Origin: Sulfurospirillum sp. SCADC
Lineage (GTDB): Bacteria > Campylobacterota > Campylobacteria > Campylobacterales > Sulfurospirillaceae
Length of the DNA stretch: 53,515 bases
Reading direction: 5' to 3'
NCBI RefSeq assembly: GCF_000743525.1
Contig: NZ_JQGK01000020.1
Span: 1-53,515 of the forward strand
Numbering within the stretch: position 1 is the stretch's first letter; each line of letters starts with the position of its first letter. The position numbers were made by a program, and so were the translations under genes. The notes below the pieces were generated by a model. It saw only the letters and a list, made by a program, of their open reading frames with translations, did no database searches and was not told the origin of the DNA. This document shows, piece by piece, positions 4,290 through 50,517 of the stretch.

Positions 4290-4412
4290 ATGCTTTCACT
4301 GGCTAAAAACATGCAGCATTTTGTGGATCTTATTGTCGAGAAATCTCCCTCTTTAGATGAGATGAAGAGGAGCTTTCACGACTTAACCATTACGTATGGA
4401 TTGCATTTTTGA
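4290..4412 (+). pseudogene. Detached N-terminus of a frameshifted membrane GGDEF gene
   Basis: A 40-codon frame starting MLSLAKNMQHFVDLIVEK. It matches the N-terminus of the neighbouring paralogue at 5589 (MIRLAKNIQHLVDFIVSK). A tandem 5-bp repeat, GATGA-GATGA at 4356-4365, shifts the frame. Removing one copy restores DEEELSRLNHYVWIAF, which aligns with HEEEIFRLNHYVWIAL of the paralogue. The frame stops at TGA 4410-4412, which overlaps the ATG at 4412 of the downstream frame, so translational coupling could still produce the rest. Confidence 0.8.
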
Positions 4413-5440
4413 TGATTCCTGTCTCCCTTTTTACCAGTGTTTACAATGCGTATAGTGCCAATTACACCTTGGCTTTTTTGATCATGCTTTTTGCCTCTTA
4501 CACGATTGGCTCGCTCTTTCTCATCCCTAAAATTAAAAAAACGTACCTGCTGTACCACGGCGCCAATCTTCTTTATACGATTTTACTGCTTTACGTTGTT
4601 TCGCATCTTGATAGTGAAAATTCACGCATCCTTTGGACCTATATTTATCCCATTAGTGTTATCTTTTTATTTGGCAATCGTCTGGGTTTTTTGTACAGTT
4701 GTCTCTTTTTGAGCATGATCATCGCGCTGTTTCTCTTTGTTCCGCATATTCACACCGTCTACAGCATCCCGTTTCAAATTCGTTTTGCCATTACGTATAT
4801 GATCGTTGCGTTTATCAGCAGTTGGGTGGAGTATCACCGTGCGCGGTACCAAAAAGAATCTTTGCAGACGCACTACGCTCTTTTTTTAGAACAAGCACTG
4901 CTCAAAGAGGAGATCGAGCGACGTTGTGTGCTTGAGAAAGAGCTTCAATACCTCGTACAAACGGACACCCTAACCTTGGTCTACAACCGTGGTTATTTCT
5001 TGGAATTGGCAGAAAAAGAGCTTCAACGTGCCATGCGTTACGATGCTTCGCTCTGTTTTGCGGTACTTGATATTGACAATTTTAAACGCATCAATGACAC
5101 ACTGGGTCATCCTGTGGGCGATAGCGTACTCCAAGCGTTAGCACAGCATTGTAAACAGAGTTTGAGGGAGACGGATATTATTGGGCGGTTGGGCGGTGAA
5201 GAGTTTGCATTGATCCTTTTACATGTAAACGAAGAACACGCTAGAGCGAAGATGGAAAAACTCAAAGATGAGCTGAGTCAACTGAGTGTTCCCTACGATG
5301 GAGGGCTTACGCTCAACTTTACCGTCAGCATTGGATTAGCCATGTTGAATGAGCGCATTAAACGACTTGATGAGCTTTACATTCAAGCCGATGAGAAACT
5401 TTACCTTGCTAAAAATGCAGGGCGTAACTGCGTTCGTTAA
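4412..5440 (+). CDS. Membrane diguanylate cyclase, N-terminally truncated by frameshift
   Basis: 342 residues: about five hydrophobic segments (residues 1-150), a short coiled linker, then a complete GGDEF domain with DTLTLVYNRGYF, DIDNFKRINDTLGH and the active-site GGEEF. It would make cyclic di-GMP at the inner membrane. The start used is the ATG overlapping the stop of the upstream fragment; a TTG at 4409 is in the same frame. The true ancestral start is 4290, cut off by a 5-bp duplication. A TTACATGTAA palindrome at 5219-5228 encodes LHV in LILLHVNEE. The tandem paralogue at 5589 carries a different lesion. Confidence 0.8.
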   Translation: MIPVSLFTSVYNAYSANYTLAFLIMLFASYTIGSLFLIPKIKKTYLLYHGANLLYTILLLYVVSHLDSENSRILWTYIYPISVIFLFGNRLGFLYSCLFLSMIIALFLFVPHIHTVYSIPFQIRFAITYMIVAFISSWVEYHRARYQKESLQTHYALFLEQALLKEEIERRCVLEKELQYLVQTDTLTLVYNRGYFLELAEKELQRAMRYDASLCFAVLDIDNFKRINDTLGHPVGDSVLQALAQHCKQSLRETDIIGRLGGEEFALILLHVNEEHARAKMEKLKDELSQLSVPYDGGLTLNFTVSIGLAMLNERIKRLDELYIQADEKLYLAKNAGRNCVR

Positions 5441-5588: not shown

Positions 5589-6635
5589 ATGATTAGATTA
5601 GCTAAGAACATTCAACATCTTGTTGATTTCATTGTTTCTAAGGCGCATTCTCAGCATGAAGAGGAAATTTTTAGACTCAACCATTATGTGTGGATCGCTC
5701 TTTTGATGTTGCCTGTTGCCATTGGTTCTGGAGCCTATAATGTCTACATCAAGAATTATGCGTTAGCCTTTCTGATCATACTTTTTTCAGGGCATATGAT
5801 TGGCTCATTGTTCCTCATTCCTACCATCAAAAGAACGTATCTGCTCTACCATGGTGCCAATCTTCTCTACACTTTTTTGCTTCTTTACATGGTGTTCCAT
5901 ACTGATGCTGAGAATTCCCGTATTCTTTGGGCTTATATCTACCCTGTAGGCATCATCTTTTTATTGGGGCATCGTCTTGGCTTTTTATGGAGCTTTTTAC
6001 TCTTATGTATGATGATCGGGCTTTTCCTTTTTGTTCCTGAAATTCACACGATCTACAGCATCCCCTTTCAAGTTCGTTTTGGTATCACCTATCTTGGTGT
6101 AGCGATTATCAGCAGTTGGGTTGAATACCACGGCTCGCGTTCTCATCAAGCGCTTTTGTTAGAGCAAAAATTACTCAATGAAGAGATAGAAAGACGCAAA
6201 ATACTAGAAAAAGAGCTTAAACGCGCCAAACGCTATAACACCTCTCTCTGTTTTGCTATCCTTGATATTGACTATTTTAAGCGCATCAATGACACCTTTG
6301 GTCATCCTATTGGTGACACCGTTTTACAAGCACTTGCAAAACAGTGCTTAGGTAGCTTGCGAGAAACGGATTTAATGGGAAGACTGGGTGGAGAAGAGTT
6401 TGCGTTTTTACTGTTACATGTAACCGAAGAGCAAGCCAGAGCCAAGATGGAAAAGCTTAGAGAAGAGCTAAGCCAACTCAATGTTTCCTATGATACAAAC
6501 TCAACGCTCAATTTTACTGTGAGTATCGGTCTTGTGATGCTCTCAGAGCGGATTGAAGGGTTGGATGAGCTCTACATCCAAGCCGATGAAAAACTCTATG
6601 CCGCTAAAGATGCGGGGCGGAACTGCGTGCGCTAA
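5589..6635 (+). CDS. Membrane GGDEF protein with internal deletion in the GGDEF domain
   Basis: 348 residues, a paralogue of the preceding gene with an intact N-terminus (MIRLAKNIQHLVDF...) and the same membrane region. The catalytic GGEEF and DIDYFKRINDTFGH remain, but about 26 residues containing the domain's opening DxLT...NR motif are missing. The lost stretch lies between two EKEL-coding direct repeats in the paralogue (4934 and 5012), which suggests recombination between them. Diguanylate cyclase activity is therefore doubtful. A palindrome at 6414-6423 encodes LHV at the same place as in the paralogue. Confidence 0.8.
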   Translation: MIRLAKNIQHLVDFIVSKAHSQHEEEIFRLNHYVWIALLMLPVAIGSGAYNVYIKNYALAFLIILFSGHMIGSLFLIPTIKRTYLLYHGANLLYTFLLLYMVFHTDAENSRILWAYIYPVGIIFLLGHRLGFLWSFLLLCMMIGLFLFVPEIHTIYSIPFQVRFGITYLGVAIISSWVEYHGSRSHQALLLEQKLLNEEIERRKILEKELKRAKRYNTSLCFAILDIDYFKRINDTFGHPIGDTVLQALAKQCLGSLRETDLMGRLGGEEFAFLLLHVTEEQARAKMEKLREELSQLNVSYDTNSTLNFTVSIGLVMLSERIEGLDELYIQADEKLYAAKDAGRNCVR

Positions 6636-50162: not shown

Positions 50163-50471
50163 TTGAAAAAGATATTTCACCTCCACGTTGAAAACAAAAA
50201 CAGCGACCGACTCGTAGAGTCCATCAAACATGAAATTCGTAAATACATCAAACGTGAACGCACTAAAAAGACACCCGAAGGGTTCCATTTCTGGGACTTT
50301 GACTGCAAATTCGGCGAAAGTGCACAAAATGCACAAGCCGTTCACCAAGCCGATCTTGGCGAAGAAATCGACAAAGCACACAGCGCAAAATGGAGCGAGT
50401 GTTACATCGAGATCATCGCTAAACCTGCCAAAAAACCTGTCGCTGCTGCTAAGGAAAAAGAGACAAAATAA
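50163..50471 (+). CDS. DUF6172-like small protein
   Basis: 102 residues, TTG start with AAGG upstream. The central EIRKYIKRERTKKTPEGFHF then WDFDCKFG matches a small uncharacterised family I recall as DUF6172. It has a Lys/Ala-rich C-terminal tail. The function is unknown. Confidence 0.6.
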   Translation: MKKIFHLHVENKNSDRLVESIKHEIRKYIKRERTKKTPEGFHFWDFDCKFGESAQNAQAVHQADLGEEIDKAHSAKWSECYIEIIAKPAKKPVAAAKEKETK

Positions 50472-50473
50472 TC

Positions 50474-50517
50474 TTTACATGTAAAGTAAAAGCGAAACGC
50501 TACACTTTACATGTAAA
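50474..50517. repeat. Two palindromes forming a larger imperfect inverted repeat
   Basis: Cores at 50475-50484 and 50507-50516 flank an inner AGCG/CGCT stem, so the whole region can fold as one imperfect hairpin. It follows the DUF6172-like stop and could terminate that transcript. Confidence 0.65.

Follow-up and report, generated by a model that had tools for sequence, protein, structure and literature searches.

The split gene and its tandem paralogue

The window, the whole 53,515-bp stretch of DNA analysed here, is contig 20 of the draft genome of Sulfurospirillum sp. SCADC (2.66 Mb in 38 contigs). It includes two adjacent genes, here called gene 1 and gene 2, for diguanylate cyclases of the type made up of a MASE6 domain (PF20966) and a GGDEF domain (PF00990). 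A tandem MASE6-GGDEF pair is also present in another genome of the same genus, G012, on a 29,506-bp contig. Gene 1 is split into two ORFs at a short tandem duplication found 4.3 kb inside the contig, while gene 2 is a single open frame that has a gap in its GGDEF domain. The features of the locus are as follows.

4290–4412, + strand: 5′ fragment of gene 1, a 40-aa ORF running from ATG 4290 to TGA 4410–4412
4355–4365, + strand: AGATGAGATGA, an 11-bp run with a period of 5, made up of two head-to-tail 5-bp units (2.2 units), from a repeat scan and homologue alignment
4356–4365, + strand: GATGAGATGA, the 5-bp tandem duplication, the sole copy in the window
4409–5440, + strand: 3′ fragment of gene 1, a 343-aa ORF starting at TTG 4409 or ATG 4412, from the ORF list and Pfam profiles
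4410–4414, + strand: TGATG, a stop/start overlap, from the sequence and homologue alignment
5589–6635, + strand: gene 2, the tandem MASE6-GGDEF paralogue, an open frame that is 26 codons short in GGDEF
6207–6218, + strand: GAAAAAGAGCTT, the single remaining copy of a 12-bp direct repeat, at a deletion junction (6206/6207)

The duplication is near codon 23 of gene 1 and shifts the frame, so that roughly the first 24 codons of this MASE6-GGDEF gene are read in a different frame from those that follow. The 5′ fragment, which has AGAGG at a suitable distance ahead of its ATG, encodes the native N-terminal residues as far as the duplication and frameshifted residues from there to its TGA. The duplication also creates a TGA (4358–4360) in the downstream frame. 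The 3′ fragment contains an incomplete MASE6 domain, matching profile positions 22–167 of 170 with positions 1–21 unmatched (gene 2 matches 7–169), and a complete GGDEF domain (151.9 bits, cut-off 23.8) that has kept the GGEEF active-site motif. The DxLTxxxNR turn is present in gene 1 as TDTLTLVYNR.

A search of 24 Sulfurospirillum genomes recovered homologues in 17 of them, and the site was aligned in 19 homologous genes, all from genomes other than that of the window. The extra 5 bases are absent from all 19, and none has more than one unit. Pairwise alignment of gene 1 with its two nearest orthologues, G006a (90.8 % nucleotide identity) and G007 (90.7 %), produced exactly one gap in each case, corresponding to the 5 bases. 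A single open frame extends across the site in 18 of the homologues, and in these the N-terminus is conserved (type MLxLAKxxQHxVDxIV...RLNHYVW). The other homologue, from G004, has a single frame at this site and its own apparent 1-bp frameshift further down. This independent change is in a CACACA stretch of a gene that is 99.5 % identical to the homologue in G005.

These comparisons confirmed the proposal in the earlier note that a 5-bp tandem duplication splits a diguanylate cyclase gene, as the intact homologues carry one unit. Gene 1 has an ORF-disrupting lesion that is absent from its orthologues, which is one of the marks of a pseudogene. The insertion is counted as real because the relatives lack it and not because the repeat is unusual. 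Perfect two-copy repeats with a period of 5 are common in the window (39 found, 48 ± 9 expected under a first-order Markov model), and the repeat itself was rejected as evidence. From the alignments, the duplication is judged to have arisen after the split from the species carrying G006a and G007, and is strain-specific as far as the sampled relatives show.

The GGDEF domain of gene 2 also scores above the Pfam cut-off (127.3 bits, cut-off 23.8), and both genes include RLGGEEF, a form of the GG(D/E)EF motif. When gene 2 was compared with G012b (96.0 % nucleotide identity) and G006b (88.7 %), 78 bp were found to be missing after position 6206, in frame. In G006b, two copies of GAAAAAGAGCTT are spaced 78 bp apart, and the single copy remaining here is what a deletion between direct repeats leaves behind. 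Among the 26 residues removed is the DxLT...NR segment, which is present in the relatives of gene 2. Alignment to solved GGDEF domains (e.g. 6zxm), together with the description of DgcR (PMC8041772), identified the lost segment as the wide turn plus the greater part of helix α0, the helix that leads into β1. This region has been put forward as the link through which the coiled coil and the catalytic domain communicate (PMC6733907). Gene 2 is therefore without the DxLTxxxNR wide turn and without a complete helix α0, as described for this type of domain (PMC8041772, PMC6733907). The catalytic core (FKRIND...GHPIGD and GGEEF) is retained.

On the window branch, omega for gene 2 was 0.76, compared to 0.15 elsewhere (p = 0.014), a result that involves approximately 15 substitutions and is one of two tests. 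The gene 2 lesion is a 78-bp deletion specific to this strain, with relaxed constraint. It was overlooked in the earlier note, which had used the paralogue at 5589 as the intact reference for gene 1. The single-unit frame put forward there as the intact form was borne out by all 19 homologues, but the paralogue is not itself intact. Gene 2 is closest to G012b (96 %), whereas gene 1 has 77 % identity to G012a but 91 % to G006a and G007, and this pattern suggests recombination or gene exchange at the tandem pair.

Age of the gene 1 lesion and alternative readings

A codon model applied to the 342 codons downstream of the duplication gave gene 1 an omega of 0.0793 on the window branch, compared to 0.0789 for the rest of the tree (likelihood ratio test, p = 0.99). 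An omega of 1 over the whole window branch was rejected (2ΔlnL 8.3), as was an omega of 0.3 (4.7), so purifying selection on gene 1 was normal along most of this branch. The unchanged omega means that the lesion is very young, that it is an assembly error or that the fragment is still in use. We prefer the first of these because the 16 other genes shared with the syntenic region of G006 are each intact in one frame, the 5-bp duplication is clean and no second, intact version of gene 1 or of the 5-bp site was found elsewhere in the assembly. General assembly noise and genome-wide decay were considered, and neither was seen among the genes compared with the syntenic G006 region.

An assembly or sequencing error, with one unit and an intact gene 1 in the true genome, is rather unlikely. 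It would be consistent with the unchanged downstream constraint, with the lack of a second lesion across the 342 codons and with the draft state of a genome in 38 contigs. However, a perfect 5-bp duplication is atypical of short-read or homopolymer errors, and the site is kilobases away from the contig end. The lack of any further frameshift in the genes shared with G006, and the presence of just one version of the site among the contigs, also argue against an error.

Continued use of the fragment via translational coupling, in which ribosomes stopping at TGA 4410–4412 would reinitiate at ATG 4412 to produce a working cyclase of 342 aa, is improbable. The TGATG overlap exists, as the earlier note had pointed out, the GGDEF domain is intact and omega is unchanged, though recency explains the last of these equally well. 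Thirteen of the 19 homologues carry TGATG in frame, encoding Leu-Met within TM1, and the overlap is hence an old sequence coincidence that predates the duplication rather than a restart selected after the frameshift. When the sequence was read for a Shine-Dalgarno-like sequence at a usable distance before ATG 4412, none was found. The restart ORF also begins too far downstream to include the RLNHYVW stretch, which is nearly invariant, and contains just half of TM1, and the hydropathy segment VWIAFLMIPVSLFACVYNA of intact G006a was missing when this ORF was scanned. With the overlap inherited, no Shine-Dalgarno sequence and the N-terminus and half of TM1 lost, this looks a weak route to a shortened protein, and a normal membrane sensor is unlikely to arise from the restart.

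The earlier note had also raised the possibility of an on/off switch, in which the gene would be ON with one unit and OFF with two. A pentanucleotide change does alter the frame, and tandem duplications can revert at a low rate by recombination or slippage. However, translational phase variation at simple repeats needs hypermutable tracts. In a survey of Campylobacter, which is related to Sulfurospirillum at the phylum level, the cut-off for simple sequence repeats (SSRs), derived from published switching tracts, was at least five tetra- or pentanucleotide units, and no SSR with a unit of more than two nucleotides was reported (PMC6321876). The gene 1 tract consists of 2.2 units, and in a between-species comparison the number of units was invariant across the 19 homologues. 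A search of the literature on reversible two-copy duplications in bacteria and on MASE6-GGDEF proteins found nothing useful. With just two units and no variation in unit number in any relative, we consider it very improbable that this minimal two-copy pentanucleotide slowly and reversibly switches a membrane diguanylate cyclase on and off. If it did, a single slippage event would toggle a c-di-GMP-controlled behaviour, the paralogue being already disabled.

Ribosomal −1 frameshifting at U UUU UGA before the stop at 4410–4412, where a slip on the T5 run directly preceding the stop would re-enter the downstream frame and give some full-length protein, is scarcely credible, as there is no canonical slippery heptamer, the T5 run is inherited from intact relatives and a scrambled segment would replace the conserved EEELSRLNHYVW.

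The gene 1 frameshift is most likely real and an ordinary recent loss-of-function event. At a threshold of E ≤ 1e-60, the family had no match in 7 of the 24 Sulfurospirillum genomes, including four with 99 % and one with 92 % completeness, and the G004 copy has its separate 1-bp frameshift. A GGDEF query matched 33 places in the host genome, corresponding to about 30 enzymes of this kind. Given these numbers, losing one copy, or both, is unremarkable, and the MASE6-GGDEF family looks dispensable in the genus.

Recent loss of gene 1 by duplication together with decay of gene 2 by deletion, as a redundant pair is shed, is in our view quite probably the explanation for the sequences seen here. 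Replication slippage would most likely have generated the 5-bp duplication, and translation from gene 1's own start ends after 40 aa. Reinitiation at the coincidental TGATG could supply no more than small amounts of a protein shortened at its N-terminus, and the membrane diguanylate cyclase encoded by gene 1 would recently have lost its activity, or much of it, in this strain. In gene 2, a deletion between the 12-bp direct repeats has cost the GGDEF domain its DxLT turn and the greater part of helix α0, and this gene appears to be decaying. Gene 2, despite its open frame, is probably the copy that has been decaying for longer, and until recently the functional copy was probably gene 1. On this reading the strain is shedding a pair of c-di-GMP synthases, presumably because they are redundant.

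Two different repeat-mediated indels in adjacent c-di-GMP synthase genes make this a clear but ordinary case of recent gene loss, and one in which the open-frame paralogue can be the more decayed member of the pair. Annotations should flag the frameshift in gene 1, and gene 2 is unsuitable as an intact reference.

An iterated palindrome in the window

A separate observation concerns the palindrome TTACATGTAA, found 31 times in the window compared to 0.14 expected, including at positions 743, 1705, 4223, 5219, 6414 and 8236. The host genome (2.66 Mb) contains 1309 copies, while the reversed control was found once. It was found in every other genome of the genus (49 to 1496 copies), and elsewhere in the family there are 29 to 733 copies across three other genera and 7–23 in a fourth. 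Outside the family, only 0–6 copies per genome were found. The flanks favour CT...AG. At 50456–50517 there is an imperfect 32-bp tandem repeat (1.9 copies) with TTTACATGTAAAG in its unit, which places two palindromes 32 bp apart.

From its distribution, TTACATGTAA looks like a family-specific highly iterated palindrome. A literal full-text search for TTACATGTAA revealed no paper on the palindrome among the matches listed. It is far more unusual than the gene 1 duplication and merits its own study.

Comparison with known systems

As a highly iterated palindrome, TTACATGTAA is comparable to HIP1 of cyanobacteria. For the cyclase pair, gene 1, with its two fragments taken together, and gene 2 both have the architecture of MASE6-GGDEF cyclases with the GGEEF motif, differing in that gene 1 is split near codon 23 and gene 2 has no DxLT...NR segment. 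The SSR phase variation systems of Neisseria, Haemophilus and Campylobacter share with gene 1 a change in unit number that shifts the frame within a coding region, but gene 1 differs from them in having two units, no polymorphism seen and no hypermutable tract. Gene 1 also resembles strain-specific pseudogenes formed by a short tandem duplication that shifts the frame. As in these, gene 1 has one extra direct unit from a single event that is absent from relatives, and a truncated 5′ ORF with the rest of the gene intact. It differs from them in nothing notable, and stands as a very young example in which the tandem paralogue is damaged too.
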